Source of the DNA: Flavobacterium album | GTDB taxonomy: Bacteria > Bacteroidota > Bacteroidia > Flavobacteriales > Flavobacteriaceae | Direction: 5' to 3' | Assembly: GCF_003096035.1 (NCBI RefSeq) | Contig: NZ_CP029186.1 | Span: 3,392,001 to 3,456,000 of the forward strand | DNA length: 64,000 bases | Part shown: positions 7,873 through 24,750 of the stretch, in pieces | Layout: the number at the start of each line of letters is the position of its first letter | Position numbering within the stretch: the stretch's first letter is position 1 | Made by a program: the position numbers and the translations under genes | Notes under the pieces: model-generated | What the model saw: the letters and a program-made list of their open reading frames with translations, nothing else | The model's database searches: none | What the model was told of the DNA's origin: nothing

Positions 7873-7915
7873 TGACACAGGTCATTTACCGGATCGGCCA
7901 TCTGTCATAGTTTTG
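7873..7915 (+). promoter_or_regulatory. TGAC-N4-GTCA operator and -7 element of the PEP-synthase-like gene
   Basis: TGACACAGGTCA at 7873-7884 is a perfect TGAC-N4-GTCA palindrome. TAGTTTTG at 7908-7915 matches TAnnTTTG. The palindrome starts 35 bp before the -7 element, the same distance as at five other promoters in this window. No TTG -33 element is visible, as expected for an activator-dependent (class II) promoter. Confidence 0.8.
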
Positions 7916-7964
7916 CCGTTGTTGCGGATAGTGCCTTATACCGCCGCGACTTAAAAATGATGTG

Positions 7965-9017
7965 ATGGAACGATCTGTAATAAAATTCAATGAGGCCGGA
8001 ATAGAGGATGTTACGGAAGTCGGAAGTAAAAATGCGGCTTTGGGCGACCTTTACACTAATGGTGCCACTTCAGGCCTGCATATTCCCGATGGCTTTGCGG
8101 TAACGGTTGGCGTTTTTAAGCAATTCATGGATCATAACAATCTTGAGGGATCGTTGCAACAGCTTATGGAACGGCTGGACAGGACGGATTTTTCAAACCT
8201 TAGTGAAACCGGTAATGCCGCCCGCAGGCTTATCATGGATGCTAAATTCCCAAGGGCACAGGAACAGGAGGTTACAAATGCCTACGCCGCCCTTTTCCCT
8301 TTAAAAAATGGCGATGTGGCAGTACGCAGCAGTGTATTTGCAAAAGGGCATCAATATTTTTTCCCTGAAGGGCTGCATGAGTCGCACCTCAATATCAGGG
8401 GGCCGCTTGCACTCATTTATGCCATAAAATGTTGCTATGCCTCGCTATACAGTAACAGGGCCATCAAATTCAGGGAAATGCACGGCATACCGCATGGTTC
8501 CGTACAGCTTTCTATAGGTATACAGTGCATGGTACGCGCCGGTACAGGATGTTCCGGCATTGGCTACACATCGCATACTGTTCCCCGTTTTCCAGATGCA
8601 GTGCGCCTTACTGCCAACTGGGGGCTTGGCCAAAACACCCTGCCGGAAACCTGGGACGAATACATTATCCCTAAGACATTACAGAATGCAGGATACGGTA
8701 TACTGAAAACCATAGGCACCAAAAGCAGGATGACGGTGTATAAAGATATCTCTGCCGGTACCAACTCTATACTGACCGTTATTACCCCTCCTGAACTGCG
8801 CGAAAAAGCCGTGCTTGATGATGCAGGGATATTGGAACTCGCACGGATGGCAATATTGCTGGAAGCGCACTACAGTTATCCTGTAGTATTTGAATGGGCC
8901 AACGATGGGGAGGAAAACCTGTTTTATATTACCGGCATACGACCTGCTGTAACGGGCAGCTGCGACAGTAACAACATGAACGCTGCACCGCTTCCGGAAA
9001 GACGGGATATTGCTTAA
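7965..9017 (+). CDS. Free-standing PEP synthase / pyruvate phosphate dikinase N-terminal (ATP-grasp) domain protein
   Basis: A 350-residue protein homologous only to the nucleotide-binding N-terminal part of PEP synthase. It keeps VGSKNAALGD (about 19-28), VRSS (120-123), HLNIRG, SGIGYT (197-202) and the closing FEWANDGEENLFYITGIRP. The stretch that normally reads AEDLPDASFAGQQ is strongly altered (KGHQYFFPEGLHE). The phosphohistidine swivel domain and the PEP-binding barrel are missing, so it cannot be a complete PEP synthase. The ATG at 7965 is preferred to a GTG at 7962. It carries the TGAC-N4-GTCA operator in its promoter and lies 64 bp upstream of the FixL-like kinase with no terminator between, so kinase and regulator are likely autoregulated through it. 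Biochemical role unknown. Confidence 0.85.
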   Translation: MERSVIKFNEAGIEDVTEVGSKNAALGDLYTNGATSGLHIPDGFAVTVGVFKQFMDHNNLEGSLQQLMERLDRTDFSNLSETGNAARRLIMDAKFPRAQEQEVTNAYAALFPLKNGDVAVRSSVFAKGHQYFFPEGLHESHLNIRGPLALIYAIKCCYASLYSNRAIKFREMHGIPHGSVQLSIGIQCMVRAGTGCSGIGYTSHTVPRFPDAVRLTANWGLGQNTLPETWDEYIIPKTLQNAGYGILKTIGTKSRMTVYKDISAGTNSILTVITPPELREKAVLDDAGILELARMAILLEAHYSYPVVFEWANDGEENLFYITGIRPAVTGSCDSNNMNAAPLPERRDIA

Positions 9018-9081
9018 GCATTTATTTATATGATAACACTACAGATTTTTCCCGATATTTGTTCTTAGTAAAAGACACCTA

Positions 9082-10269
9082 ATGAAAAATGAGGCGCTGC
9101 TGAACTCTATCGTAGAGAATGCCATTGACGGTATCATTACCATCAACGAACATGGCATTGTCGAAACCATCAATCCCGCGGCCTGCAGGCTGTTCCTTTA
9201 TACGCCCGAAGAGGTTGTAGGCAGGAACGTCTCCATGCTTATGCCGCAGCCTGATAAAGAACGGCACGATGATTACATCCATAAATACCGCCAGACCGGC
9301 CAGGCACACATTATAGGGTTTGGCCGTGATGTGATGGGCCTGAAAAAAGACGGCAGCATTTTTCCCTTCCGCCTTGGTGTGACCGAAGTGAAGTATGAAG
9401 GAGTACGGATGTTTGCCGGGTTCATACACGACTTGAGCCACCAGAAGGAAGCCGAGAACCGCCTGATGGAATATACCCAGCACCTTGAGGATGTGGTAAA
9501 GGAGCGCACCACTTCGCTGAACGAAACTATTGAAGAACTTACCAAAGCTAAGGAGGAAGTGAGCCAGTCGCTCGAAAAAGAAAAAGAACTGGGCAAGCTG
9601 AAAAGCCGCCTGCTCTCGATGGCATCGCATGAGTTCCGCACGCCGCTGAGTTCCATACAGCTGTCGGCATCCCTGATAGAGCGCTATACGGCATCTTTTG
9701 AAAATGCCAATGTAGCCAAGCACCTGTACAAGGTAAAAGGTGCCGTGAACAACCTAACCACCATACTGGACGACTTCCTGCATGTAGAAAAAGCCGAAGC
9801 CGGCAAGGTAGAAGTAAAATGGGGCACTTTCGACGTGGAGCATTTCTGCAGGGAAATCGTGGATGAGATACAGCTGCTTGCCAAAAAAGACCAGAACATT
9901 ATCTACAACCATAATGGTGGAAAGACCCATGTGTACCTGGACCGCAACCTGTTGCGCAACTGTATCTTCAACCTGATGTCTAACGCTATCAAATATTCGG
10001 GTGAAAACACCACCATTCACCTAACCACGATCATTACTGCCGACAGCTTTACCATTACCGTGGAGGACAACGGCATCGGCATACCCCAAGAAGAGCACAA
10101 GCATTTATTCGAAGCCTTTTTCAGGGCACAGAACACAGGCAATATACCCGGCACCGGGCTGGGCCTCAATATCGTGCTGCGCTATGTAACGCTGATGAAC
10201 GGCACCATCGAATTTAAAAGCGCTACCAACGAAGGAACCTTATTTACAATTACATTCCCCATACAATGA
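9082..10269 (+). CDS. fixL: FixL-like haem-PAS oxygen-sensing histidine kinase
   Basis: A soluble 395-residue kinase: PAS domain (about 5-125), coiled coil (about 125-175), HisKA with phospho-accepting H183 in ASHEFRTPLS, and an HATPase domain with NLMSNAIKYS, DNGIGI and GTGLGL boxes. The PAS domain follows the rhizobial FixL haem pocket closely. RHDDY supplies a histidine (H62) at the haem-ligand position (His200 of Bradyrhizobium FixL). AHIIGFGR supplies H76 and R82 at the positions of His214 and the oxygen-sensing Arg220. K68 replaces Arg206 and F80 replaces Ile218. Its stop overlaps the start of the response regulator by 4 bp, implying coupled translation. There are no membrane segments. 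Oxygen sensing is inferred from these residues. Confidence 0.92.
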   Translation: MKNEALLNSIVENAIDGIITINEHGIVETINPAACRLFLYTPEEVVGRNVSMLMPQPDKERHDDYIHKYRQTGQAHIIGFGRDVMGLKKDGSIFPFRLGVTEVKYEGVRMFAGFIHDLSHQKEAENRLMEYTQHLEDVVKERTTSLNETIEELTKAKEEVSQSLEKEKELGKLKSRLLSMASHEFRTPLSSIQLSASLIERYTASFENANVAKHLYKVKGAVNNLTTILDDFLHVEKAEAGKVEVKWGTFDVEHFCREIVDEIQLLAKKDQNIIYNHNGGKTHVYLDRNLLRNCIFNLMSNAIKYSGENTTIHLTTIITADSFTITVEDNGIGIPQEEHKHLFEAFFRAQNTGNIPGTGLGLNIVLRYVTLMNGTIEFKSATNEGTLFTITFPIQ

Positions 10270-11315
10270 CCAGAGTACTTATAATAGAGGACAATGACGA
10301 TATCCGCGAAAATATTGTAGAAATACTGGAGCTTTCGGGCTATACGGTATACGCCGCACCCAATGGGAAAGTTGGCGTTGAGCTGGCCATAAAGCAAGTT
10401 CCCGATATCATACTGTGCGATATCATGATGCCCGAAATGGATGGCTATGGCGTGATAGAGGCACTGAACAAGGATGCGGAAACGAGGGCAACGCCTTTTA
10501 TTTTCCTTACGGCAAAAGCAGAACGCACCGACGTGCGCAGGGGAATGGAACTGGGCGCCGACGATTACCTCACCAAGCCATTTGACGATACCGAACTGCT
10601 GAATGCCATAGAAAGCCGCCTTAAGAAAAAAGAAGCGCAACAGCTTTTTTATGGCAAAACAGCCGAAAAGCTGGACAGCATCATCAGCAGGAAAGATGGC
10701 CTGGAGGAACTGAAAAAGGTAATGCAGGAACGCGACACCCGTATGTTTAAAAAGAGTCAGGTCATACACCATGAAGGCGACCGCGTTATTGGCATTTACT
10801 TTGTGATCAGCGGCAAGGTAAAAACAGTGCAGCTTACACGCGATGGGCGGGAACTTATAACCGGGATGTATGCCGCTAACGATTACCTGGACCTGAATAT
10901 TATACTGTCGAACGACACCTATATAGACACGGCTGTAGCCTTAGAGCCAACAGAACTAAGCTTCCTGCCGGGCGAACAGCTGGACAAGCTGCTGTTCCTG
11001 CATCCGGACATTGGCGCTAAATTCATAAAAATACTGGCTAACAACATACGCGACAAAGAAACCAGGCTGCTGCAGATTGCATACTTATCGGTGCGGAAAC
11101 GGATTGCACAATCCATCATACGCCTTCTGGACCAGCAGGGCGATGGCTCCGGGAGTATTAAAATAAGCAGGGACGACCTCGCGGCAATATGCGGTACAGC
11201 GCCGGAAACTGTGAGCCGTACCTTAAGCGATTTTAAAGAGGAAGGCCTCATTGAAAAAAGCGGCAGCACTATACAAGTGATAAACCGCGATAAGCTGGAC
11301 AAGCTGAAGAATTAA
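10266..11315 (+). CDS. Response regulator with fused CRP/FNR DNA-binding module (REC-cNMP-HTH_Crp)
   Basis: A 349-residue regulator. The receiver domain (1-125) has acidic pocket E8/D9, phospho-acceptor D52 in LCDIMMPEMDG, T82 and K104. A cyclic-nucleotide-binding-like beta-barrel spans about 155-265, and a CRP-type helix-turn-helix about 275-335. The recognition helix TAPETVSRTLSDF carries E314, S317 and R318, the ExxSR pattern that FNR uses to read its TTGAT half-site. There are no cysteines arranged for an iron-sulfur cluster, so redox input must come from the kinase. In rhizobia FixJ and FixK are separate proteins; here both roles appear merged. Likely binds the TGAY-N4-RTCA palindromes found at six promoters in this window (inference). 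Confidence 0.93.
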   Translation: MTRVLIIEDNDDIRENIVEILELSGYTVYAAPNGKVGVELAIKQVPDIILCDIMMPEMDGYGVIEALNKDAETRATPFIFLTAKAERTDVRRGMELGADDYLTKPFDDTELLNAIESRLKKKEAQQLFYGKTAEKLDSIISRKDGLEELKKVMQERDTRMFKKSQVIHHEGDRVIGIYFVISGKVKTVQLTRDGRELITGMYAANDYLDLNIILSNDTYIDTAVALEPTELSFLPGEQLDKLLFLHPDIGAKFIKILANNIRDKETRLLQIAYLSVRKRIAQSIIRLLDQQGDGSGSIKISRDDLAAICGTAPETVSRTLSDFKEEGLIEKSGSTIQVINRDKLDKLKN

Positions 11316-11340
11316 TTGCTTTACAGGTTTCGCCAATGCG

Positions 11341-11383
11341 TGACAGGCATCATTTTATAAGCCGGGGGATTAAAATATTTTTA
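11341..11383 (+). promoter_or_regulatory. TGAY-N4-RTCA operator and -7 element of uspA-like gene
   Basis: TGACAGGCATCA at 11341-11352 and TATTTTTA at 11376-11383 (TAnnTTTG with the final G as A). Spacing from palindrome start to -7 start is 35 bp, as at the other five promoters. Confidence 0.75.
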
Positions 11384-11407
11384 CAGGGTAATTAAAACCA
11401 ACCTGAC

Positions 11408-12241
11408 ATGAAAAAAATTTTGTTCCCCACAGATTTCTCTGCAACATCCCTTAATGCATTTGTGTATGCACTGCATCTCGCAAAAAACATTGATGCAGAA
11501 ATCATTACGCTCCATGTATATGAATATCCCATAGGCTTGTCTGTTGACAACGATGATTTCCTGATGGAAAATTATAATGTGGGTGACTGGGGCGCTTTTG
11601 AGAATTTTAAAAGTGAAGTCCCAAAACTGCGTGAAATAGCAGAAAGAGAGGGAATGACGCATGTACCTGTGAGCCATATGATGGAAAGAGGCATTGCGGT
11701 TGACGGAATTGTAAATACGGCCGCCAATGAGCAGGCCGACATTATAATAATGGGCACAAAAGGTGCCACCGGGTTGAAAGAGATCTTTTTAGGCACCATA
11801 ACTGAAAAAGTAATAAAACAGGCAAAATCATTTGTAATTGCCGTACCGGAAGGTTATCGCTTTGAGCCTATCCGAAAAATACTTTTCCTGGCCGAATACG
11901 AAAAGCTGGAAATGGATCTCCTGAAAAAAGTAAAGGATTTTGCCGTCATATTTAAAGCAGATATCCACGTTTTGGAAGTAAAGAAACGTAATGACGATGC
12001 CATTGATATTCTGATGGCTAAATGGAAAGACACCTTCAAAAGCGACACTATCTCCTTTTCCTTTATAAATACCGATGCCACCGAAGACCTGATATTAGAA
12101 TTTATAGATTATCAGAAGATTAATATGGCCGTGATGTCCATACATCACAAAAACCTGTTTGAGCGGTTGTTCCTGTTTAGCCTGTCCAGGCAAATGGCCT
12201 TCCATTCAACCATCCCGGTTTTAGGTATTCCCGCTTTATAA
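11408..12241 (+). CDS. Universal stress protein, tandem UspA domains
   Basis: A 277-residue cytoplasmic protein with a complete N-terminal Usp domain (KKILFPTDFSATSLNAF start and the nucleotide-binding signature GTKGATGLKEIFLGT near residue 117) and a second, weaker Usp half from about 155 onward that begins IRKILFLAEYE. Usp proteins of this double type often accompany low-oxygen regulons in other bacteria. Here the gene follows the receiver-CRP regulator and has its own TGAY-N4-RTCA promoter site 56 bp upstream, so induction under oxygen limitation is likely. Ends just before a strong bidirectional terminator. Confidence 0.92.
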   Translation: MKKILFPTDFSATSLNAFVYALHLAKNIDAEIITLHVYEYPIGLSVDNDDFLMENYNVGDWGAFENFKSEVPKLREIAEREGMTHVPVSHMMERGIAVDGIVNTAANEQADIIIMGTKGATGLKEIFLGTITEKVIKQAKSFVIAVPEGYRFEPIRKILFLAEYEKLEMDLLKKVKDFAVIFKADIHVLEVKKRNDDAIDILMAKWKDTFKSDTISFSFINTDATEDLILEFIDYQKINMAVMSIHHKNLFERLFLFSLSRQMAFHSTIPVLGIPAL

Positions 12242-12246
12242 AAGAA

Positions 12247-12279
12247 AGCGGCTGCCGATTTGTGGCAGCCTCGCTTTTT
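12247..12279. terminator. Terminator between uspA and a convergent hypothetical gene
   Basis: GGCTGCC (12250-12256) pairs with GGCAGCC (12264-12270), with outer GCG/CGC pairing, then CTTTTTC. An A-rich 5' flank means it could also act on the minus-strand transcript. Confidence 0.85.
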
Positions 12280-12292
12280 CAAAATACCAGGT

Positions 12293-12751
12293 TTATTGTA
12301 CTTTTTCCATTTCACTGAGGGTCTCCTTCAGCTTTGCTTCTTTTTCACGGTAACTTTCCATAAAATTCTCCATCCTTTTGATAACGGATGCATCTATTTC
12401 AAGGGAATCTGCCTTTTCCTCAAATCGTTCGCCCCGCAACAACTTTTCACTAAGCTGTTCCAGCTGGCCTTCGGCATCGATAATTGCATTGCGCAGCTTC
12501 AGCTTATGATGCCTGTTAGGATCGTCAAGCTTATCGGTTGCCTTTGAAATCCGAACCTTTGCAGCTATAATATTACTCTCCGATTCTTTCTTAAACAGTT
12601 TCCATTCGGCAACGGCATTGCGTACACGGTAATCCATTTCTTCATAATCGGCTTGTTCGGTAGTTTCATACACGCTTTTTTCGTCTACATCTTCCTCGCA
12701 TCCTTTCGGGGCCAGCGCCAGCAATACTGCGGCAAGCATAAATACTTTCAT
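12293..12751 (-). CDS. Hypothetical exported helical protein
   Basis: I do not recognise this 152-residue protein. It has a short hydrophobic N-terminus (MKVFMLAAVLLALAPKGC) that may be a lipoprotein signal with Cys18, followed by a highly charged, almost entirely helical body likely to form coiled coils (for example RVRNAVAEWKLFKKESE and the C-terminal SYREKEAKLKETLSEMEK). It is convergent with uspA and divergent from hemN. No operator in the hemN promoter region has the correct spacing for this strand, so there is no evidence it belongs to the low-oxygen regulon. Confidence 0.7.
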   Translation of the reverse strand: MKVFMLAAVLLALAPKGCEEDVDEKSVYETTEQADYEEMDYRVRNAVAEWKLFKKESESNIIAAKVRISKATDKLDDPNRHHKLKLRNAIIDAEGQLEQLSEKLLRGERFEEKADSLEIDASVIKRMENFMESYREKEAKLKETLSEMEKVQ

Positions 12752-12842
12752 ATCGGGTTGATTTTATACTGCAAATCTCATTCATCTTTATACTGTGTAA
12801 AATGATGGCTGTCACTATGTGAGCAGGTACACATACCATTGG

Positions 12843-12885
12843 TGACCTATGTCATTTTTTAGCCGTGCACCGCCCTGTATTTTTG
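12843..12885 (+). promoter_or_regulatory. TGAC-N4-GTCA operator and -7 element of hemN
   Basis: TGACCTATGTCA at 12843-12854 is a perfect palindrome; TATTTTTG at 12878-12885 matches TAnnTTTG exactly. Spacing is 35 bp start to start. Transcription would begin close to 12890, giving a very short leader. Confidence 0.85.
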
Positions 12886-12904
12886 CTTTATAAAAATGAT
12901 GCAG

Positions 12905-14269
12905 ATGGAAAGTTCTATTTTACAGAAATACAATGTACCGGGGCCGCGCTATACTAGCTACCCTACGGTTCCCTACTGGGACAATTCAGGATTTACCGAA
13001 GGCTTGTGGCAGGACAGTGTGGTACAGTCGTTTGGCGAAAGCAATGCCACACAGGGCATCAGCCTGTACATCCACCTTCCGTTCTGCGAAAGCATGTGTA
13101 CCTTTTGCGGGTGCAACAAGCGTATTACAAAAAACCACGCCGTGGAGGCAGCTTACATCAGCGCCATACTGAAAGAATGGGCCATGTACCGCGACCTGTT
13201 CAGGCAGCGGCCGCGCATTAAGGAACTGCACCTTGGCGGGGGTACCCCTACTTTCTTTAGCCCGGAAAACCTCGAAAAGCTGGTAAAAGGCATTTTTGAG
13301 CTTGCCGATGCCGCTCCGGGATACGAATTCAGCTTTGAGGGCCACCCGAACAATACTACGCGGGAACATCTGCAAACATTATACGACCTGGGCTTCAGGA
13401 GGGTGAGCTTTGGCGTGCAGGACTATAGCGAAACCGTGCAGAAAGCCATCAACCGCATACAGCCGTTTGAGAATGTTGCTAAAGTAACATTAATGGCAAG
13501 GGAAATTGGGTACACATCTATCAGCCACGACCTTGTATTCGGCCTTCCTTACCAAACGGTTGAGAACATTGTAGATACCATAGAGAAAACCAATGCCCTG
13601 AGGCCCGACCGCATCTCTTTTTACAGCTATGCCCATGTGCCCTGGATAAAAGGTACCGGCCAGCGCGGCTTTGATGATACCTCCCTGCCAAAAGACAATG
13701 AAAAGCGGCGGTTGTACGAAATAGGAAAAAAAATACTGTGCGACAAGGGCTATCACGAGATAGGCATGGATCATTTTGCACTTGAGTCTGACAGTATGTA
13801 TACGTCTTTTAAAAATGGTACGCTGCATCGCAACTTTATGGGGTACAGCTCATCGGCCACACAGCTGATGATAGGCCTCGGCGTTTCGTCTATAAGCGAC
13901 AGCTGGTACAGCTTTGCCCAAAACGAAAAGACGCTGGAAGATTATTACCACAGGATAGAACAGAACGAGCTGCCGGTATTCCGTGGCCATATACTTAATG
14001 ATGAAGACCTCATCATACGAAAGCACATACTGAACCTGATGTGCCGTTTTACCACCTCATGGGATAACGATGATGACTATTTTAACGAACTGCCCGAAGT
14101 ACTTTGGGACCTTCGTGAAATGGAAAGGGATGGTTTGCTTGCGATAGAAGACACATTCATTGAAGTTACAGAAAAAGGGCTTCCCTTCGTACGCAACATC
14201 TGTATGGCGTTCGACCTGAGGCTGAAAAGGAAAGCGCCGGAAACAAAGCTGTTTTCGATGACGATATAA
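12905..14269 (+). CDS. hemN: Oxygen-independent coproporphyrinogen III oxidase
   Basis: A radical-SAM enzyme that decarboxylates coproporphyrinogen III to protoporphyrinogen IX without oxygen, allowing haem synthesis when oxygen is scarce. The N-terminus reads KYNVPGPRYTSYPTVPYW, typical of true HemN. It is followed by the iron-sulfur motif CESMCTFCGC (CxxxCxxC) near residues 61-70, then LHLGGGTPTFF and the HemN C-terminal domain; length is normal at 454. The ATG at 12905 fits homologues (MESSILQKYN). ATGs at 12896 and 12899 are in frame but would leave a leader of only a few bases from the predicted promoter. The TGAC-N4-GTCA operator directly upstream ties it to the FixL/REC-CRP system. Confidence 0.95.
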   Translation: MESSILQKYNVPGPRYTSYPTVPYWDNSGFTEGLWQDSVVQSFGESNATQGISLYIHLPFCESMCTFCGCNKRITKNHAVEAAYISAILKEWAMYRDLFRQRPRIKELHLGGGTPTFFSPENLEKLVKGIFELADAAPGYEFSFEGHPNNTTREHLQTLYDLGFRRVSFGVQDYSETVQKAINRIQPFENVAKVTLMAREIGYTSISHDLVFGLPYQTVENIVDTIEKTNALRPDRISFYSYAHVPWIKGTGQRGFDDTSLPKDNEKRRLYEIGKKILCDKGYHEIGMDHFALESDSMYTSFKNGTLHRNFMGYSSSATQLMIGLGVSSISDSWYSFAQNEKTLEDYYHRIEQNELPVFRGHILNDEDLIIRKHILNLMCRFTTSWDNDDDYFNELPEVLWDLREMERDGLLAIEDTFIEVTEKGLPFVRNICMAFDLRLKRKAPETKLFSMTI

Positions 14270-14293
14270 TTTTTTAGGTTTTGTTTAGTAGAT

Positions 14294-14326
14294 AAAAACC
14301 GGTGTCGTTGCGATGCCGGTTTTTTT
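14294..14326. terminator. Bidirectional terminator between hemN and HxlR-type regulator
   Basis: AAAAACCGG and CCGGTTTTTT form the outer stem around a partly paired centre. A-run and T-run on opposite sides make it usable by both convergent genes. Confidence 0.8.
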
Positions 14327-16395: not shown

Positions 16396-16438
16396 TTTTT
16401 TTAGATTGTTGGATTTTGGATCTTTGGATTTTTAGATG

Positions 16439-16504
16439 AGAGATAATAGATGATAGATATTGGATTACTTTAATTTATCTATTTGTCTATCATCTATTAT
16501 CTCT
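16439..16504. repeat. 19-bp perfect inverted repeat between ccoH and the UreH-like gene
   Basis: AGAGATAATAGATGATAGA at 16439-16457 is the exact reverse complement of 16486-16504, with a 28-bp AT-rich loop. The flank contains short GGATTTTGGATCTTTGGATTT repeats. It may be a small non-autonomous element or an RNA hairpin at the operon end. Confidence 0.75.
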
Positions 16505-16526
16505 TTATCTATTATCACTATCTCTT

Positions 16527-16973
16527 TTACAGCATCAGCATCTCTTGCGTGAAATAGCCTTTGCCGTTATATTGCCAGTCTATGATAATGTCCCATCGGC
16601 CGCCTGCCAGGTCACTTTTAGGTATGAGCAAATGATGGCCTGATAATGAAAAGGGTACTTCATGATCAAGTTTTTGGTCAGACGGCCTGTAGAGGGACAC
16701 TTTCCCTGTAATTTTTTTATCGTCGAATTCTTCGGGGAACGTAATTTTGATGTCTTTCCCCTCATTTATTATCTGTACTTTATGTTCAAGGGCAGCAGCA
16801 TTTTGCTCCCTGTCCAGCTGTGCCTGCAGTGTGCGTTCCTGCTTGTAGTACTCCTCTACCACAAGCTCATTATCGTATTTGCTGTCGCTTTGCACCCGGA
16901 AGACAAAAAACAATATGAATCCCATAAACAGTGCAAAAGCAGTTACTATTCCCGTACCCCAGTTAAATTTCAT
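16527..16973 (-). CDS. ccoH: cbb3 oxidase assembly protein CcoH (FixH family)
   Basis: A 148-residue membrane-anchored protein: one N-terminal transmembrane helix (about 6-26), a charged linker and a FixH-type beta domain ending GRWDIIIDWQYNGKGYF. CcoH/FixH stabilises the cbb3 oxidase during assembly. The frame reaches 17114 but those extra codons fall within the repeat element at 17001-17145, and MKFNWGTGIVTAF at 16973 is the natural start. It lies 183 bp from ccoG, unusually far for this gene order, because of the repeat. Confidence 0.88.
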   Translation of the reverse strand: MKFNWGTGIVTAFALFMGFILFFVFRVQSDSKYDNELVVEEYYKQERTLQAQLDREQNAAALEHKVQIINEGKDIKITFPEEFDDKKITGKVSLYRPSDQKLDHEVPFSLSGHHLLIPKSDLAGGRWDIIIDWQYNGKGYFTQEMLML

Positions 16974-17000
16974 GTCATTTATAGTTTTAGTTTGTTTATT

Positions 17001-17145
17001 TTTAACCACATAGATACATAGCAAATCAGTATCTTTTATTTGATGTCTTAGGATGTTGAAGCCCACATAGTGAAGCAAAGCTTCAACCTTTGTGTTGCTA
17101 TGACTATAGAGCATTATAAAAAACCTATGTACCTATGTGGTTAAA
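17001..17145. repeat. Inverted-repeat element copy A, between ccoG and ccoH
   Basis: The ends TTTAACCACATAGATACATAG (17001-17021) and its inverted match CTATGTACCTATGTGGTTAAA (17125-17145) enclose about 100 bp with a central GAAGCAAAGCTTC (17072-17084). Related copies lie at 32398-32547 and near 54868-55075. There is no coding capacity; it looks like a small mobile or REP/MITE-like element sitting inside the cco operon. Confidence 0.85.
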
Positions 17146-17156
17146 TATTTAAACTG

Positions 17157-18575
17157 TTAGTTAAACGTCCTCGGCCCCAAAAAGTTGGTAGTTTCGGTAT
17201 CTATGCGCTTATCGCCGTTATACACCTCAAGGGTTATTTTTGTTTTGTCGCCCTTTAGCCAGGCGGGGTTTATCTCTACGAACAGCGTTCCCGAAACCAT
17301 ACCTTCCTTCGGCACTTTAAACCTTGGCGCACCTACGGTCTTTACAGTACCTTTAGGATTAGCTAAAACAAAGTAGACATCGTTAAAATCCCTTCCTGTT
17401 TTATTAATTACCTTGTAGGTGAACACATTGCTTATATTCTCGCCCTTGTGCTCAAAAAGCTGCCCGGGCAAGCGAAGCACTGTAGCCTCTGCATCGTTGC
17501 GCAAAAAGAGCATTCCTGTAAAAACGCCTGTCAGGATTAGCAGTACCGCTGCGTAGCCTTTCATACGGGTCGTGAAGACGAACTTTTCCTTTTTGGTTAT
17601 CTCATCCTCGCTGGCATAGCGTATCAGCCCCTGCGGGAAACCTACCTTGTCCATGATGGTATTACACTCGTCTATACAGGCAGTACAATTGGTGCATTCC
17701 AGTTGGGTCCCATTACGGATATCGATACCCATAGGGCAAACGCTAACGCAAAGCTTGCAGTCAATACAGTCGCCTTTGCCGGAAAGCAGGCGGTCCTCAT
17801 TCTTCACGATCCTGCCGCGGCCTTTCTCGGCCTCACCGCGCACATGGTCGTAGGCCACCACGATGGTCTTGTTATCCAGTAACGCCCCCTGCAGCCTGCC
17901 GTACGGGCAAACGATGATGCATACCTGTTCCCTGAACCACACGTAGATATAAAAGAACACGGCTGTAAATATCAGCAGGGCGATAAGGGTACCCATGTTG
18001 CCTGCTGGCCCCTCCTCTACCATTTCTATCAGCTCATCGCTTCCGGTAAGGTAGGCCAGGAATACATTGGCAATAAGGAATGAGATGACAAAGAACACAA
18101 ACCATTTAAACACTTTTTTTCGGATCTTCTCACCATTCCATTCCTGCTTGTCGAGCTTTATCTGTGCGTTCCGGTCGCCTTCGATCCAATACTCAATCCT
18201 GCGGAAAACCATTTCCATGAAGATCGTCTGTGGGCATATCCATCCGCAAAAAATCCTCCCGAAAGCTACCGTAAACAGCGCTACGAACACCACGCCAATA
18301 ATCATGGAAATGACAAATAGGTGGAAATCCTGAGGCCAGAAAGGGAATCCGAAAATATTAAACCTACGCTCCAGCACATTGAACATAAGAAACTGGTTAC
18401 CATGTATCTTAACAAATGGTGCCGCAAACAAAAATGCAAGCAGGAACCATGTTAGCGTCTTGCGGTATTTATAGAGTTTCCCATTAGGCTTTTTGGGGTA
18501 AACCCATACCCTCTTTCCTTCTTCATCTACGGTACCCAGCCGGTCCCGGAACTCATCATCATGCAGGTCGTCCAT
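17157..18575 (-). CDS. ccoG: cbb3 oxidase accessory iron-sulfur membrane protein CcoG (FixG)
   Basis: A 472-residue polyferredoxin-like membrane protein. It has several transmembrane helices, CGWICP at 110-115 in the NapH-like region, and two 4Fe-4S sets: C270/C273/C276/C280 (CIDCKLCVSVCP) and C294/C297/C300/C304. These precede a C-terminal Ig-like periplasmic domain. In other bacteria CcoG reduces copper(II) during cbb3 copper-site assembly. It follows ccoP after 79 bp containing a perfect 13-bp palindrome. Length and motifs are normal for the family. Confidence 0.95.
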   Translation of the reverse strand: MDDLHDDEFRDRLGTVDEEGKRVWVYPKKPNGKLYKYRKTLTWFLLAFLFAAPFVKIHGNQFLMFNVLERRFNIFGFPFWPQDFHLFVISMIIGVVFVALFTVAFGRIFCGWICPQTIFMEMVFRRIEYWIEGDRNAQIKLDKQEWNGEKIRKKVFKWFVFFVISFLIANVFLAYLTGSDELIEMVEEGPAGNMGTLIALLIFTAVFFYIYVWFREQVCIIVCPYGRLQGALLDNKTIVVAYDHVRGEAEKGRGRIVKNEDRLLSGKGDCIDCKLCVSVCPMGIDIRNGTQLECTNCTACIDECNTIMDKVGFPQGLIRYASEDEITKKEKFVFTTRMKGYAAVLLILTGVFTGMLFLRNDAEATVLRLPGQLFEHKGENISNVFTYKVINKTGRDFNDVYFVLANPKGTVKTVGAPRFKVPKEGMVSGTLFVEINPAWLKGDKTKITLEVYNGDKRIDTETTNFLGPRTFN

Positions 18576-18630
18576 ATTACTTTTTATTTATCCTGAATCC
18601 GCGGAGTATTCACTAGGGATTCAAAGGCTT

Positions 18631-18643
18631 TACGATAATCGTA
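18631..18643. repeat. 13-bp perfect palindrome between ccoP and ccoG
   Basis: TACGATAATCGTA lies in the 79-bp gap upstream of ccoG on the minus strand. It has no T-run, so it is not a terminator. It may be a protein-binding site or chance. Confidence 0.45.
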
Positions 18644-18654
18644 CTAAATCAGGG

Positions 18655-19569
18655 TTATTTTCCGTTAGTTGCCACTTCAGGCGCTTTTCCGGCTTCTTCT
18701 TTCCATATCTCGCCATCCGGCGCTTTCGGGTCTTTAGGGTTAGAACCCTGTAGTGAAAGCACATAGCTCGCTACTTTTTGTATCTCAGATGGTTTGAGGG
18801 TACCCTTCCATGGCACCATCCCCTTGCCGTCGCGGCCACCTTCTGTTATGGTATGGAAAACATTCTTGATACCGCCACCCAGCAACCAGTATTCATCCGT
18901 AAGGTTAGGCCCTATCGCGCCCCCTGCATCAGACCGGTGGCATGGAATGCAGTTGGTCTCGAATATTTTCTTCCCTTCCGCAAGTTCTGCAGGATCGGTC
19001 AGCAGCGTTACAGTGTTGGCATCTATAAGGTCTTTGGCAGTCTTGCGGTATTCCTCAACTGCCACGCGCGCCTCTTCCATTTCGGTATCAAATTCAGCTT
19101 TCTGGTCTTTGCCGTCCATGATATGGAAACGCACCAGGTAAATCGCTGCAAAGGCTATCGTTACATAAAAGAGCTTTACCCACCACGGCGGCAGCACGTT
19201 ATCAAGCTCATGGATACCATCATAATCATGATTCATCAGGATGGTGCCTTCTTCTTCTATCGGCCTGCTCTTTACAAAGAAAGCCTTCAGCTTTTTAAAC
19301 CATTTGCTGTCTTTGTAATCAATCGCATCGGCTTCGTCCAGCTTCCTTTTCTGCTCCTCTGTAAGCAGGCTGTAGGTTACCTTGTCTACCGCAGCGATCA
19401 CGATCTCTATTGCTACCTGCAAAAACAGGAATACGAAGAGGAATACCGATACTAACGGGTATTTGATAAATGCCGGGCGGTCGCCGGAGTCGATAAAATA
19501 TTCGAGGGCCATGAATACCATTGCAAAAAGCAATGGTACCCGTACGTATACTGGAATAAACTTTTTCAT
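18655..19569 (-). CDS. ccoP: cbb3 oxidase subunit CcoP with a single haem-c site
   Basis: A 304-residue membrane-anchored cytochrome c that feeds electrons to CcoNO. It has two N-terminal transmembrane segments and a charged cytoplasmic stretch. The CcoP N-domain anchor follows (LDNVLPPWWVKLFYVTIAFA, about 122-141), then one cytochrome c domain with CIPCH and the axial-ligand region GMVPWKGTLKPSEIQ. Proteobacterial CcoP has two CxxCH sites; only one is present here. The start at 19569 lies 10 bp after ccoQ; a longer frame to 19617 would overlap ccoQ. The C-terminal tail is rich in Pro, Lys and Glu. Confidence 0.94.
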   Translation of the reverse strand: MKKFIPVYVRVPLLFAMVFMALEYFIDSGDRPAFIKYPLVSVFLFVFLFLQVAIEIVIAAVDKVTYSLLTEEQKRKLDEADAIDYKDSKWFKKLKAFFVKSRPIEEEGTILMNHDYDGIHELDNVLPPWWVKLFYVTIAFAAIYLVRFHIMDGKDQKAEFDTEMEEARVAVEEYRKTAKDLIDANTVTLLTDPAELAEGKKIFETNCIPCHRSDAGGAIGPNLTDEYWLLGGGIKNVFHTITEGGRDGKGMVPWKGTLKPSEIQKVASYVLSLQGSNPKDPKAPDGEIWKEEAGKAPEVATNGK

Positions 19570-19579
19570 AATGTAGAGG

Positions 19580-19774
19580 CTATTGGTTTTCGGTTCCGTT
19601 TTCTTCCTCCCCTGCAAAAGGGAGGTTGCTCAGTTCGTTAATCTTTTCTTTGCGGTAGGTATACACCCAGGTATAGAGCACAATGAAAAAGATAAAGAAG
19701 ATAAGCAGCGAAATGATGGGATAAATCTCAATTCCCGCAATGGATTCCAGGTTGTGCTTTACAAACTTTAGCAT
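19580..19774 (-). CDS. ccoQ: cbb3 oxidase small subunit CcoQ
   Basis: A 64-residue single-span membrane protein (hydrophobic segment about residues 17-38) with a polar C-terminal tail RKEKINELSNLPF. Its position between ccoNO (6 bp) and ccoP (10 bp) and its size identify it as CcoQ, which protects or stabilises the oxidase. Sequence conservation is low in this family, so the call rests on context. Confidence 0.88.
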   Translation of the reverse strand: MLKFVKHNLESIAGIEIYPIISLLIFFIFFIVLYTWVYTYRKEKINELSNLPFAGEEENGTENQ

Positions 19775-19780
19775 GGCTTA

Positions 19781-21973
19781 TTATTTTGAAGGTTTGTTGT
19801 CTTTTATTTTGATATCGGTGCCAAGGCGCTGCAGGTAAGCAATAAGCGCTATGATCTCGCGGTCTTTCATCGGTACGAATTCTTCGCCCCGTGCCTGCGC
19901 TGCCTTACGGCTTTCTTCGTAGCTCTTCACAAAGTCAGGATCGGCATGCAGGCTTTTCTCGATCTTTGCTGCCTGCTCATTAATGCTGGACTGTGCATTG
20001 GCAATGTCTTCTGTAGTATACGGAACCCCAAGCTGCTCCATCACCTCCATTTTTTTCTTCGTATAGGAGTAATCCATCTTCTTGTTATCGAACAGCCACT
20101 TATACGCAGGCATGATCGAGCCTTCGGAGGTACTTTGCGGGTCCCACAGGTGGTTGAAGTGCCAGTTGTCGCTGTATTTTCCGCCAACCCTCATCAGGTC
20201 CGGGCCGGTGCGCTTAGAGCCCCAAAGGAATGGGTGGTCGTATACATATTCACCCGACTTCGAATATTCGCCATAACGTTCTACCTCACTGCGGAAAGGG
20301 CGTATCATTTGAGAGTGGCAGCCCACGCAGCCTTCGCGGATGTAGAGGTCGCGGCCTTCAAGCTCCAGCGGTGTATAAGGTTTCACCGTAGATATCGTAG
20401 GTATGTTCGATTTAACCATTATGGTAGGGACAATCTGTATAATTCCGCCTATCAATACGGCAATGGTAGCAAGAATGGCAAGCTGTATCGGCTTCCTTTC
20501 CAGCCATGGGTGGAATTTCTCACCTTTAAGCCTTTTGCTGCTTATCTTTTGCAATTCAGGCGCTTCGGCAAGTTCATCCTCGATTTTCTGGCCCTGCCTT
20601 ACGGTCATTATGATATTGTATACCAGTACCAGCAAACCAATTACGAATAGTGTGCCGCCAATAGCCCTCATCCAGTACATCGGCATGATCTGCTTCACGG
20701 TCTCAAGGAAGTTACCGTATTTTAATGTTCCGTCAGGGTTGAATTCTTTCCACATAGATGCCTGCGTAAACCCGGCCACATACATTGGCAAAGAATACAT
20801 AATGATACCTAATGTACCGATCCAGAAATGGAAGTTGGCCAGCTTAACAGAGTACAATGTTGTTTTGGTCATGCGCGGTATCAGCCAGTAGATCATACCA
20901 AAAGTGAGGAAGCCGTTCCAGGCCAGCGCACCAACGTGTACGTGAGCCACGATCCAGTCGGTAAAGTGGGCAATGGCGTTTACGTTTTTCAATGACAGCA
21001 TCGGGCCTTCAAACGTTGCCATACCATAGCCGGTAATGGCTACTACAAAGAACTTAAGTACCGGGCTGGTGCGCACTTTATCCCATGCGCCACGCAGTGT
21101 GAGCAATCCGTTGATCATACCACCCCATGACGGCGCAATAAGCATTATAGAGAATACCACACCAAGATTCTGTGCCCAGTCGGGCAATGCAGAATACAGC
21201 AGGTGGTGCGGCCCAGCCCAGATATAGATGAAGATAAGCGACCAAAAGTGGATGATGGACAGCTTGTATGAATATACAGGGCGGTTGGCAGCTTTAGGTA
21301 CAAAGTAGTACATGAGCCCCAGGAATGGTGTGGTAAGGAAAAAGGCCACGGCGTTATGCCCATACCACCATTGCACCAAAGCATCCTGTACACCGGCGTA
21401 TGCGGAGTAGCTTTTCATCCCGCTTACCGGAATGGCAATACTGTTGAAAATGTGCAGAATGGCAACGGTTATGAATGTAGCAAGGTAAAACCAGATGGCA
21501 ACATACATGTGGCGTTCCCTCCTTTTTATGATTGTACCTATCATATTGATACCAAACACGACCCATATCAGCGCGATGGCGATATCTATAGGCCATTCCA
21601 GTTCGGCATATTCTTTAGATGAAGTATAGCCCAATGGCAATGATATAGCTGCTGCAACTATGATAAGCTGCCAGCCCCAAAAGTGGATGTTGCTCAAAAC
21701 ATTCGAGAACATACGGGCTTTAAGCAGCCTCTGCATAGAATAATAAATACCGGCAAACATGGCGTTGCCCACAAAGGCGAAGATCACCGCGTTGGTGTGC
21801 AGAGGCCTTAGCCTTCCGTAGCTAAGCCAGGATACACCGTCGGTAAGATTAGGGAACAGGTACAGCGAGGCTATCAGCAGCCCCACGAGCATTCCCACTA
21901 CCCCGAAAACTATAGTGGCGTAGAGAAACTTTTTGACTATCTTATTGTCGTAATAAAATTGTTGCATTTCCAT
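19781..21973 (-). CDS. ccoN: cbb3 cytochrome c oxidase, fused CcoN-CcoO subunit
   Basis: A 730-residue fusion of the catalytic subunit CcoN (about 1-455) and the mono-haem cytochrome CcoO (about 490-730). CcoN features: H60 in RPLHTN as low-spin haem ligand candidate, H206 in WWYGHNAVAFF and H256/H257 in GPHHLLY as CuB ligands, H344/H346 in AHVHVGA as haem ligands. CcoO features: CVGCH at 549-553 in a GCVGCHSQMIRPF context and M621 in GSIMPAY as probable axial ligand. High-affinity terminal oxidase that reduces oxygen and pumps protons at low oxygen. The CcoNO fusion is usual for Bacteroidetes. Starts 2 bp after ccoS. Confidence 0.97.
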   Translation of the reverse strand: MEMQQFYYDNKIVKKFLYATIVFGVVGMLVGLLIASLYLFPNLTDGVSWLSYGRLRPLHTNAVIFAFVGNAMFAGIYYSMQRLLKARMFSNVLSNIHFWGWQLIIVAAAISLPLGYTSSKEYAELEWPIDIAIALIWVVFGINMIGTIIKRRERHMYVAIWFYLATFITVAILHIFNSIAIPVSGMKSYSAYAGVQDALVQWWYGHNAVAFFLTTPFLGLMYYFVPKAANRPVYSYKLSIIHFWSLIFIYIWAGPHHLLYSALPDWAQNLGVVFSIMLIAPSWGGMINGLLTLRGAWDKVRTSPVLKFFVVAITGYGMATFEGPMLSLKNVNAIAHFTDWIVAHVHVGALAWNGFLTFGMIYWLIPRMTKTTLYSVKLANFHFWIGTLGIIMYSLPMYVAGFTQASMWKEFNPDGTLKYGNFLETVKQIMPMYWMRAIGGTLFVIGLLVLVYNIIMTVRQGQKIEDELAEAPELQKISSKRLKGEKFHPWLERKPIQLAILATIAVLIGGIIQIVPTIMVKSNIPTISTVKPYTPLELEGRDLYIREGCVGCHSQMIRPFRSEVERYGEYSKSGEYVYDHPFLWGSKRTGPDLMRVGGKYSDNWHFNHLWDPQSTSEGSIMPAYKWLFDNKKMDYSYTKKKMEVMEQLGVPYTTEDIANAQSSINEQAAKIEKSLHADPDFVKSYEESRKAAQARGEEFVPMKDREIIALIAYLQRLGTDIKIKDNKPSK

Positions 21974-21975
21974 GG

Positions 21976-22158
21976 TCAGGCGTTATTTTGATTTTGTGGT
22001 TTGTTTTCTTGCTTCTTTAGCTCGTCGTCAAACAAAACCCTGACAGACGGCGTGTAACTGTCGTCAAACTGTCCCTGCCTTACCGCCTTTATAAAGGCGT
22101 ACAGGAAGAGGACCGCGACAATGATACTGATGGTGATCAATAAATAGATTACGCTCAT
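21976..22158 (-). CDS. ccoS: cbb3 oxidase assembly protein CcoS
   Basis: A 60-residue single-span membrane protein: MSVIYLLITISIIVAVLFLYAF helix followed by AVRQGQFDDSYTPSVRVLFDDE, the typical CcoS tail. CcoS is needed to insert haem and copper into cbb3 oxidase. It is the first gene of the structural operon and has its own promoter with a TGAC-N4-GTCA site, separate from that of ccoI. Confidence 0.92.
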   Translation of the reverse strand: MSVIYLLITISIIVAVLFLYAFIKAVRQGQFDDSYTPSVRVLFDDELKKQENKPQNQNNA

Positions 22159-22178
22159 GGTTCTTAAATTTATGTTAA

Positions 22179-22221
22179 CAAAATTAGGGTGTCCGGATAT
22201 CTTAAAATATGACGGTGGTCA
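22179..22221 (-). promoter_or_regulatory. TGAC-N4-GTCA operator and -7 element of ccoS-ccoNOQP
   Basis: On the minus strand TGACCACCGTCA (22221-22210) is a perfect palindrome and TAATTTTG (22186-22179) matches TAnnTTTG exactly. Spacing is 35 bp start to start. It lies in the 81-bp gap between ccoI and ccoS. Confidence 0.85.
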
Positions 22222-22239
22222 TACTCCCGGCTTTTTTCG

Positions 22240-24612
22240 CTATTTCCTTCGTGCATAATAATTGCTCATCAGCGTTACAAAGCTTATAATGGTTATGGTG
22301 CTCAGCGGCATGATGATAGCGGCAGTAAGCGGCATCAGCCTGCCTGTAACCGCAAAGGACAATCCCACCACATTGTAGAGCAACGATAGCCCAAAGCTCA
22401 TCCGGATAGTCCTTATCGTACGTTTGGAAAGCCGCATAAAATAGCCAAGCCTCCGGAATTGTGACGCGTCCAGGATACCATCGCAGGCGGGCGAGAATAC
22501 ATTCACATTTTCTGATATGGCAATGCCTACGTTACTTTGAGCCAGTGCCCCGGCATCGTTAAGCCCGTCGCCTATCATCATTACACTGCTTCCCTTTTTC
22601 TGGAGGTTTTCAATAAAGGCCAGCTTCTGCTCCGGTTTTTGGTTGAAATGGAATTCGGTACCTTCCGGCAGTAGCTGTTCAAGCACATGCCTTTCGCCGG
22701 CATTATCGCCAGAGAGTATCTTCAGCGAATATTTTTTCTGCAATTCGGCAAAAAGCTCCTTGAGCCCTTCGCGGTATTGGTTGTCAAAAACATATTTGCC
22801 CATATAATTGCGGTTGATCGCAATATGTACATTGGTCTGCATCAGGTTATCTTCCTCATAGCCTACAAAAGATACCGAGCCAATCCTGATATGGATGCCG
22901 TCAACAACACCGCTAATACCTTTTCCGGTCACTTCCTCAAAATCTTCAACAGGGAGCGTGCGTGTCATAGGCAGCGCATCATACAGCATCCTGCTAAGCG
23001 GGTGGTTGGAGCCGCGCAGTACATTCCTTATATACATAAGCTGCTTATCATCGGGCGCGTTACCCTCAAAATAGATCTCCGATTTCTTATTGGTAGTTAT
23101 CGTCCCGGTTTTGTCAAATACTATGGTGTCTATTTTTGCCATCTGCTCTACCACGGTGGCGTTTTTGAGGTACAGCTTGCGGTTGCCCATTATCCTGAGC
23201 ACATTACCCAGTGTAAAAGGCGCGCTGAGGGCAAGTGCGCACGGACAGGCCACAATGAGCACAGCGGTAAACACATTAAATGCGGTTTGTGTATCTATAA
23301 ATATCCAGGTACTGAAGGACATCACCGCTATGAGCAGCAGCAGCGGCGTAAAATACCGGCTGATCGTATCGGTCATTGTTTTATAATCCCTGTCGCCTTT
23401 TCGGGAAAACACATCGTTGCTCCACAGCTGTGTAAGGTAGCTTTGCGATACCGACCGCAATACCTCCATCTCCACCACGGGGCCTATCTGCTTGCCGCCG
23501 GCATAGACCTTATCGCCTGAATGCTTGGTTACAGGCACCGATTCGCCGGTTACAAAGCTGTAATCGATCAGGGCGCTTTCACTCATTAGTATACCGTCTA
23601 CAGGAATAAGCTCGCTATTGCGTATCAGCAGCCTGTCACCCGCCAACACATCATAAACCGGGATGGAAGTTTCACTCCTGTCAGCCAGTATTTTGGTTAC
23701 TGCGATCGGAAAATAGGATTTAAAATCACGCTCGAACGAGAGAAAATTATAGGTTTTTTGCTGAAAGAGTTTACCTAAAAGCATAAAGAATACCAATCCT
23801 GTAAGGCTGTCGAAAAAGCCCTGTCCGTAGCCGAAGATGATATCCACCGTACTGCGGACAAACATGACTATAATCCCCAATGCAATGGGTACTTCTATAT
23901 TAAGCATTCCCGCCCTGATGCTCTTCCAGGCCGATACATAATACCCGCTCGCCGAATACAGGAAGGAGGGCAGCGCCAGCGCAAAAACCAGCCAACGGAA
24001 AAAACCGCGATAATTATCGAGCCAGTATTCTTCCATCTCAAAATATTCCGGGAAGGACAACAGCATGATATTACCAAAACAAAAGAACGCTACGCCCAGC
24101 TTGTAAACAAGGTCACGGCTTATGCTTTTGGGTTTATTATCGTAATTATCAAGACTGATGTATGGCTCATAGCCAATAGAATTGAGCAGGTACACTAGTT
24201 CCCTCAGGCTGGCAACGGACGGGTCGAAGATGATGCGTACCCGTTTTTCGTGGAAATTGACCTGCGAGCTGCTCACCGCCCTGTTGAGCTTATTGAGGTT
24301 TTCCAGTATCCAGATGCAGGAACTGCAATGGATGTGGGGAATGTAAAGGCTTATTATATGTACATTTTCTTCCTCAAACTCCAGCAGTCTTTTTACGATA
24401 TCCTCGTTATCCAAAAAGTCATATTTCCCTTTGATGTCCTGCGGAGTAGCTCCGGGCGAACGCTCAAAGCTGTAATAATCTGTAAGCCCGTTGAGGCTGA
24501 AAATCTCATATACGGTCTTACAGCCGTTGCAGCAAAAAGATTTCCCGTCAAAGACGATCTCCTCTTTTTTTACAACGTCCAGTCCGCAATGAAAACAGTG
24601 TTGCGTATCCAT
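22240..24612 (-). CDS. ccoI: Copper-translocating P-type ATPase CcoI (FixI) for cbb3 oxidase assembly
   Basis: A 790-residue P1B ATPase that moves copper out of the cytoplasm for the oxidase. In order: an N-terminal cysteine-rich region (CFHCG at 6-10, CCNGC at 27-31) typical of FixI, a heavy-metal-associated domain with CSSC at 96-99, transmembrane helices, TGES near 355, the ion-path motif CPC at 456-458, the phosphorylation site DKTGT with D500, and GDGLNDAGAL near the C-terminus. It is the first gene of the minus-strand cbb3 locus, with its own TGAY-N4-RTCA promoter site. Placing ccoI ahead of ccoS and ccoNO is common in Flavobacteria. Confidence 0.96.
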   Translation of the reverse strand: MDTQHCFHCGLDVVKKEEIVFDGKSFCCNGCKTVYEIFSLNGLTDYYSFERSPGATPQDIKGKYDFLDNEDIVKRLLEFEEENVHIISLYIPHIHCSSCIWILENLNKLNRAVSSSQVNFHEKRVRIIFDPSVASLRELVYLLNSIGYEPYISLDNYDNKPKSISRDLVYKLGVAFFCFGNIMLLSFPEYFEMEEYWLDNYRGFFRWLVFALALPSFLYSASGYYVSAWKSIRAGMLNIEVPIALGIIVMFVRSTVDIIFGYGQGFFDSLTGLVFFMLLGKLFQQKTYNFLSFERDFKSYFPIAVTKILADRSETSIPVYDVLAGDRLLIRNSELIPVDGILMSESALIDYSFVTGESVPVTKHSGDKVYAGGKQIGPVVEMEVLRSVSQSYLTQLWSNDVFSRKGDRDYKTMTDTISRYFTPLLLLIAVMSFSTWIFIDTQTAFNVFTAVLIVACPCALALSAPFTLGNVLRIMGNRKLYLKNATVVEQMAKIDTIVFDKTGTITTNKKSEIYFEGNAPDDKQLMYIRNVLRGSNHPLSRMLYDALPMTRTLPVEDFEEVTGKGISGVVDGIHIRIGSVSFVGYEEDNLMQTNVHIAINRNYMGKYVFDNQYREGLKELFAELQKKYSLKILSGDNAGERHVLEQLLPEGTEFHFNQKPEQKLAFIENLQKKGSSVMMIGDGLNDAGALAQSNVGIAISENVNVFSPACDGILDASQFRRLGYFMRLSKRTIRTIRMSFGLSLLYNVVGLSFAVTGRLMPLTAAIIMPLSTITIISFVTLMSNYYARRK

Positions 24613-24634
24613 TATTTGCTCATTTTACCTGTGG

Positions 24635-24677
24635 CAAAATTGGCTTTTAAGGAAAAAAGGGGAAATGATACGCATCA
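24635..24677 (-). promoter_or_regulatory. TGAT-N4-ATCA operator and -7 element of ccoI
   Basis: On the minus strand TGATGCGTATCA (24677-24666) is a perfect FNR-like palindrome and CAATTTTG (24642-24635) matches TAnnTTTG at seven of eight bases allowing C for the first T. Spacing is 35 bp. Confidence 0.75.
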
Positions 24678-24707
24678 TTAAAGCTGCAGGGGGCCAAATG
24701 TTAAATG

Positions 24708-24750
24708 TGACCGCTATCATATTTGCCGCAGCGGGACGGGTGTAATTTTA
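24708..24750 (+). promoter_or_regulatory. TGAC-N4-ATCA operator and -7 element of the CoA hydrolase gene
   Basis: TGACCGCTATCA at 24708-24719 and TAATTTTA at 24743-24750 (final G replaced by A). Spacing is 35 bp. The divergent ccoI promoter has its own site 30 bp away, so each direction has a dedicated operator. Confidence 0.78.

Follow-up and report, generated by a model that had tools for sequence, protein, structure and literature searches.

The question raised by the 64,000-nucleotide stretch of the Flavobacterium album genome analysed here (contig NZ_CP029186.1, positions 3,392,001 to 3,456,000; the window) is which regulator reads a palindrome, TGAY-N4-RTCA, that recurs in front of its cbb3 oxidase, hemN and sensor kinase genes. 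Judged by sequence, the sites are FNR/FixK-type boxes, and their spacing from the promoter box is not private to this genome. Operator type and spacing are common to relatives, and the new part is the regulator. An FNR-like regulator appears, from gene content and locus layout, to have been replaced in F. album by a FixL-like kinase and a receiver domain fused to a CRP-family protein (receiver-CRP), and seven operators in the window would probably be activated at low oxygen by this pair, with receiver-CRP docking at −41.5.

Nine TGAY-N4-RTCA palindromes occur in the window, and for 7 of the 9 the distance from the start of the palindrome to the start of a TAnnTTTG-like box downstream is exactly 35 bp (a spacer of N = 23). 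The boxes of the seven pairs, which are listed below, include 3 exact TAnnTTTG copies and 4 with one substitution.

7873..7915, plus strand: operator TGACACAGGTCA (7873-7884) and exact box TAGTTTTG (7908-7915), before the PPDK_N-like, FixL-like kinase and receiver-CRP genes.
11341..11383, plus strand: operator TGACAGGCATCA and box TATTTTTA (11376, one substitution), before usp.
12772..12814, minus strand: operator TGACAGCCATCA (12803-12814) and box GAGATTTG (12779-12772, one substitution), before the minus-strand open reading frame (ORF) 12293-12751.
12843..12885, plus strand: operator TGACCTATGTCA and exact box TATTTTTG (12878), before hemN.
22179..22221, minus strand: operator TGACCACCGTCA (22210-22221) and exact box TAATTTTG (22186), before the ccoS-like ORF and ccoNO.
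24635..24677, minus strand: operator TGATGCGTATCA (24666-24677) and box CAATTTTG (24642, one substitution), before ccoI.
24708..24750, plus strand: operator TGACCGCTATCA and box TAATTTTA (24743, one substitution), before the CoA hydrolase gene.

At the remaining two palindromes, one within ccoS at 22128 and one at 48818, no TAnnTTTG-like box occurs at the 35-bp spacing. A first-pass annotation had described six promoters with the operator at this distance. All six palindromes were recovered in place, each starting 35 bp before a box, but the count is seven, as the minus-strand site at 12803-12814 had been overlooked, and the boxes of the six, graded there as four that match exactly or closely and two that carry one substitution, are 3 exact and 3 with one substitution. 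The PPDK_N-like, kinase and receiver-CRP genes likely form one operon behind the 7873 operator, and autoregulation is therefore likely.

The palindrome is over-represented in the window: 100 shuffles averaged 3.06 copies, and every one had fewer than the 9 observed. A box was found at N = 23 for 7 of the 9, while the other 60 spacings together gave 10 matches; without correction for 61 spacings, the binomial P is ∼4e-12 if the box rate is taken from the whole window and 2.5e-11 if it is taken locally. The genome-wide motif search proposed in the first-pass annotation also finds the spacing to be non-random. The F. album genome is a single contig of 3,983,546 bp (99.98% complete), and over spacers of N = 8-38 (31 spacings) it contains 16 exact matches, of which N = 23 accounts for 7 and N = 22 for 2, the other 7 being scattered; the reversed-pattern control gave 3. 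Allowing one mismatch, N = 23 gave 29 matches versus 3 for the reversed pattern. A set of named relatives, made up of the best 80 matches of one receiver-CRP scan (loci L053-L132, 1.48 Mb), has 20 exact and 135 one-mismatch sites at spacer 23, and each of the other 20 spacings gave 0-5 exact and 3-19 one-mismatch sites. The statement that the arrangement is very unlikely to have arisen by chance is thus borne out by the shuffles and by the spacing controls in the window, the genome and the relatives.

At class II promoters, CRP and FNR act from a centre at −41.5. For the F. album operators this value was obtained by combining the fixed 35-bp distance with a box position borrowed from F. psychrophilum, where TAnnTTTG occupies −12 to −5 according to the main text of PMC9723704; applied here, this places the operator from −47 to −36 and agrees with the class II activator position, near −41, suggested earlier. 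Bases were counted in 17 of the 19 one-mismatch matches with an intact palindrome, L028 and L029 being dropped as they have no plausible start codon. At positions outside the selection, T is present at −35 in 15 of the 17 sites, at −33 in 15 and at −32 in 13. A start codon follows within 59 bp in 16 of 17 (the ORF at L033 has only 14 codons), and is 175 bp away at L009.

The candidate regulators are encoded within the cluster by two genes that overlap by four bases.

9082..10269, plus strand: FixL-like PAS sensor histidine kinase, 395 aa, with HisKA and HATPase_c domains and phospho-acceptor H183.
10266..11315, plus strand: receiver-CRP fusion, 349 aa, with a receiver (D52), a cyclic nucleoside monophosphate (cNMP)-type domain and a CRP winged helix-turn-helix (HTH) with an ETVSR recognition helix.

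The best PDB match of the kinase is FixL (E 1e-31), and its H62, H76 and R82 are taken to match H200, H214 and R220 of Bradyrhizobium japonicum FixL (FixL numbering). The predicted protein has the parts that define FixL, a kinase core and a haem-PAS domain in which the proximal His and the distal Arg are present, and haem binding is predicted. It scores 173 bits against the NCBIfam FixL equivalog, a model that covers rhizobial full-length FixL and has a cut-off of 850. Receiver-CRP combines a cNMP-type domain, a CRP winged HTH and an E-x-x-S-R helix as in FixK/FNR-type proteins, ETVSR being the FNR/FixK pattern, and 67 PDB sequences match it at E up to 0.001, FixK2 and FNR included. No FNR-type N-terminal cysteine cluster was found in the protein, which begins with the receiver domain, and it does not correspond to separate FixJ and FixK proteins, the receiver being fused directly to the CRP part. 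Receiver residues D9, D52, T82 and K104 are kept in 20 aligned receiver-CRP sequences. The receivers of L210 and L211 (from genomes G292 and G234, respectively) look degenerate by eye: both have an altered N-terminal acidic pair, and G292 also has E in place of D52.

A FixL-like ORF lies within 60 bp of the receiver-CRP gene, on the same strand, in 63 of the 80 named loci. For the 68 of 80 loci that have a kinase ORF near enough to be counted, kinases with both FixL haem-pocket residues, His and Arg, accompany 33 of 34 ExxSR fusions versus 11 of 34 ExxIR fusions. Among the distant receiver-CRPs (L084-L132), the ExxIR fusions are mostly paired with a different PAS kinase carrying M, L or another residue at the R220 position, and perhaps these kinases serve another signal. 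No description of a receiver-CRP with FixL in Bacteroidota was recognised in searches of the open-licence PMC literature.

Under the proposed mechanism, loss of O2 from the predicted haem of the kinase would lead to phosphorylation of the receiver of receiver-CRP. The CRP part would then bind TGAY-N4-RTCA and, acting as a class II activator in contact with RNA polymerase, raise expression of the cbb3 oxidase with its assembly genes, hemN, usp and the CoA hydrolase gene, and, through the operator at 7873, of the kinase and receiver-CRP genes themselves. FixL-FixJ-FixK would in effect be collapsed into two proteins acting on the operators of FNR, the pair having taken these over in the way proposed for FixLJ-FixK in Caulobacterales. 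The remaining genes of the cluster are as follows.

7962..9017, plus strand: PPDK_N-domain-only protein, 351 aa, similar to the N-terminal part of phosphoenolpyruvate synthase.
11408..12241, plus strand: universal stress protein (Usp).
12293..12751, minus strand: 152-aa protein with no Pfam match, behind the seventh site.
12896..14269, plus strand: hemN, oxygen-independent coproporphyrinogen III oxidase (TIGR00538, over cut-off).
15694..19617, minus strand: DsbD_2-type biogenesis protein, fixH, fixG and ccoP.
19781-21973, minus strand: ccoNO fusion, in the block 19781..22158.
21976-22158, minus strand: small ccoS-like ORF, read by eye.
22240..24612, minus strand: ccoI-type heavy-metal P-type ATPase.
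24723..26063, plus strand: acetyl-CoA hydrolase/transferase family gene, listed as an ORF from TTG.

For the CoA hydrolase gene, an ATG 17 bp after the box is a likelier start than the listed TTG. The PPDK_N gene adjoins the FixL/receiver-CRP genes in 7 of 11 same-genus receiver-CRP loci, and an N = 23 site is found upstream of it in 6 of the 7 in which it adjoins FixL. Directly upstream of the cluster (5122-7789), an imelysin-family gene is followed by a di-haem oxidoreductase gene, and none of the nine palindromes precedes them.

The first-pass annotation saw one shared low-oxygen programme in these genes, and that theme stands: in F. psychrophilum the cbb3 oxidase is strongly up-regulated under oxygen limitation, and haem-synthesis enzymes are also raised (PMC9723704). 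The words Crp, Fnr and palindrom are absent from the main text part of that article. Elsewhere in the F. album genome, sites precede genes for an OmpW-family protein, a pyridine nucleotide-disulphide oxidoreductase, a cation P-type ATPase (spacer 22), a BON-domain protein, an L,D-transpeptidase, an MlaE permease, a pyridoxal-phosphate decarboxylase and a serine-hydrolase family protein; E. coli ompW belongs to the FNR regulon (PMC4886647). More sites with spacers of 22 and 23 are clustered just upstream of the window (3371965-3383053, L051), in front of BON-domain, ATP-cone/Mrr-like, P-type ATPase, L,D-transpeptidase and MlaE genes, and the low-oxygen region is probably not confined to the window.

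Whether the pair took the place of an FNR-like protein was addressed in 101 same-genus genomes, with ortholog thresholds of E ≤ 1e-40 for the stand-alone FNR-like protein and E ≤ 1e-60 for receiver-CRP. The FNR-like gene was detected in 91 of the 101 and receiver-CRP in 14. Both are present in 10 genomes, receiver-CRP only in 4 (F. album, which is G000, and G218, G234 and G268), FNR only in 81 and neither in 6. A 226-aa same-genus FNR-like query gave 0 matches in the F. album genome at E ≤ 1e-40, and tblastn against the window and two neighbouring stretches, run to look for remnants of FNR, picked up nothing beyond the receiver-CRP gene except matches with E above 4. A decayed fragment at 3372268-3372471 (L051:6268-6471), ∼20 kb upstream of the window, lies between two divergent N = 23 sites. 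The weak HTH match at 3372268 was considered as an FNR remnant and rejected, as the fragment is closest to a receiver-CRP C-terminus; it resembles the last 70 residues of a second receiver-CRP (58.6% identity to P0086), with stops inside.

All nine FNR-linked same-genus loci examined have the FNR-like gene divergent to ccoI, and N = 23 sites (one mismatch allowed) precede the ccoNO block in 9/9 and ccoI in 7/9, with one more ambiguous. F. album ccoI shares 69-71% identity with its counterparts in 9 same-genus loci, where they adjoin FNR-like genes; matches to ccoI of 21-22% near receiver-CRP loci were taken as other P-type ATPases. No ccoNO, ccoP or fixG was found near the ten receiver-CRP loci of FNR-bearing genomes, four of these stretches ending at contig ends. 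The kinase/receiver-CRP pair adjoins hemN-cco in F. album and G268, both one-contig and FNR-less, and the sites persist there. The place divergent to ccoI, which holds the FNR-like gene in relatives, is occupied by the CoA hydrolase gene in F. album, and across these two genomes by a CoA hydrolase or usp gene, each with its own N = 23 operator. G218 and G234 are under 90% complete, and the layout comparison covers F. album and G268.

The receiver-CRP tree included the 80 named rows, the F. album protein and 11 same-genus rows, and G268, G218, G234 and G292 were placed in a separate FastTree tree. Flavobacterium receiver-CRPs (16 rows, support 100/99) nest in a clade that is otherwise Sphingobacteriaceae or an unplaced bin (100/99), a topology consistent with transfer from Sphingobacteriaceae. 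F. album and G268 fall in different subclades (support for the nearest grouping of G268 is 0.42), which would fit two replacement events. There is perhaps an even chance that a kinase and a one-protein FixJ-FixK equivalent, acquired from Sphingobacteriaceae, displaced the Flavobacterium FNR, possibly twice, moving beside the cbb3 cluster and reading the FNR operators at −41.5.

The operators are provisionally attributed to receiver-CRP on gene content, as it is the sole protein over the HTH_Crp_2 cut-off in the F. album genome, and on its position inside the cluster. Several results weigh against this attribution. The association between FNR loss and receiver-CRP is weak (P 0.03 in 101 genomes and 0.20 in the 85 well-assembled, kinship uncorrected). 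In a site scan of 198 Bacteroidota genomes, scored as per-genome counts, at least one exact N = 23 site was found in 84 of 198 and in 46 of the 49 belonging to the same class as F. album. The 17 same-class genomes without a receiver-CRP ortholog contain 73 exact sites (median 4, reversed control 4), and the 32 with one contain 201 (median 4, reversed control 7). G122, where receiver-CRP is the sole HTH_Crp_2 match, has 0 exact sites, with 15 one-mismatch sites versus 3 in the control; G115, with no HTH_Crp_2 match, also has 0 exact sites, and 7 one-mismatch sites versus 1 in the control. A one-to-one rule does not hold in G138 either, where three exact sites occur and the CRP-like protein found is one of 193 aa only. 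Finally, six truncated CRP-like proteins of F. album, some with an ExLSR end, are possible binders. The proposal that the motif marks receiver-CRP genomes was rejected, as same-class genomes with and without the ortholog do not differ. Because those without it have as many sites, the 35-bp spacing is general to the class rather than a mark of receiver-CRP, and because the spacing is common to same-genus and same-class genomes that lack the ortholog, the regulator cannot be told from the motif alone.

Spacer 23 is also not exclusive upstream of FixL-like ORFs, since among 77 of these in the named loci N = 20 occurs 9 times, N = 22 6 times, N = 23 8 times and N = 24 4 times; the spacer of 20 is possibly another arrangement or reflects shared descent. 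For other genes in the named loci, N = 23 was found upstream of usp in 10/44, ccoNO in 8/23, hemN in 2/29, ccoI in 2/12, PPDK_N in 1/6 and receiver-CRP in 2/78, and upstream of none of 23 ccoP, 28 fixG, 21 fixH and 23 DsbD_2 genes.

The description of receiver-CRP as the only CRP-like protein of F. album was softened after eight proteins with a cNMP-type domain turned up in the genome, namely receiver-CRP, one CBS-type protein (672-aa open frame) and six short proteins with a truncated HTH. That the operators are genuine class II sites read by one or more of these six (∼190-208 aa) is unlikely, though it retains a real share of the probability. Their HTH ends at the recognition helix, with the ExLSR motif in some, and one of them (L166, 3066698) is encoded beside an N = 23 site at 3067178, but none is over the HTH_Crp_2 cut-off, the regulated cluster was not found to encode any of them, and nothing seen ties any of them to an oxygen sensor.

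It is likewise unlikely, to a slightly greater degree, that receiver-CRP reads the operators while the kinase senses nitric oxide, carbon monoxide or redox state, or that phosphorylation represses. Haem-PAS proteins can bind gases other than O2, and the residue matching FixL R206 is K in this kinase (alignment, by eye); against this, cbb3 oxidase and hemN are targets to be expected of a low-oxygen response, and an operator centred at −41.5 suits activation. Decidedly improbable is that the operators are unused leftovers of a lost FNR-like regulator whose spacing survives by descent. The ccoI and ccoNO sites do sit where FNR-bearing relatives have theirs, but the inner four bases have drifted (TGACCACCGTCA at the F. 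album ccoS site, TGATAATTATCA or similar in relatives) while TGAY, RTCA and the spacing stay, and sites also precede genes elsewhere, including the kinase/receiver-CRP transcription unit. A chance meeting of a common palindrome and a common box has next to no probability and is refuted by the spacing controls, as spacer 23 stands out in window, genome and relatives even though one-mismatch boxes are frequent (0.7% of positions).

Activation by the kinase and receiver-CRP is thus retained as the probable reading. Bacteroidota promoters use an unusual −7 box, and no description of a class II operator rule for them was seen in searches of the open-licence PMC literature. A fixed 35-bp rule across the class would make Bacteroidota low-oxygen regulons predictable from sequence. 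As a single genus includes FNR-only, receiver-CRP-only and dual genomes, replacement of a regulator under a constant operator is directly testable.

In E. coli class II CRP/FNR promoters the operator is centred at −41.5, with the FNR-like core TGAT-N4-ATCA. The F. album sites share this core and centre but are combined with the Bacteroidota TAnnTTTG box and a T-rich stretch from −35 to −31. The same-genus FNR-like protein (226-228 aa) is encoded beside the same cco genes with the same N = 23 sites. It has an N-terminal CxxC and a VCFIP cysteine resembling the fourth of FNR (by eye), and, unlike receiver-CRP, it has no receiver and mostly an ESCIR or ESAIR helix in place of ETVSR. In its components the F. 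album system also resembles FixL-FixJ-FixK of Alphaproteobacteria. The two have in common a FixL-type haem-PAS kinase (predicted in F. album), a receiver for phosphorylation, a protein of the CRP family that lacks the N-terminal cysteines of FNR, and cco and hemN as actual or putative targets. In that system FixK and FnrN share sites, and cco and hemN are among the targets, as outlined in PMC4999443. The F. album system differs in its phylum and promoter box, in the outer T and A of TTGA...TCAA, which are not conserved in its operators, and in having receiver and CRP parts in one protein, so that there is no FixJ-to-fixK transcription step. Caulobacterales are inferred in the same source to have lost FnrN, its sites being taken over by a transferred FixLJ-FixK (PMC4999443). 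By analogy, F. album would be a parallel case in another phylum, with the functions of FixJ and FixK in one protein.

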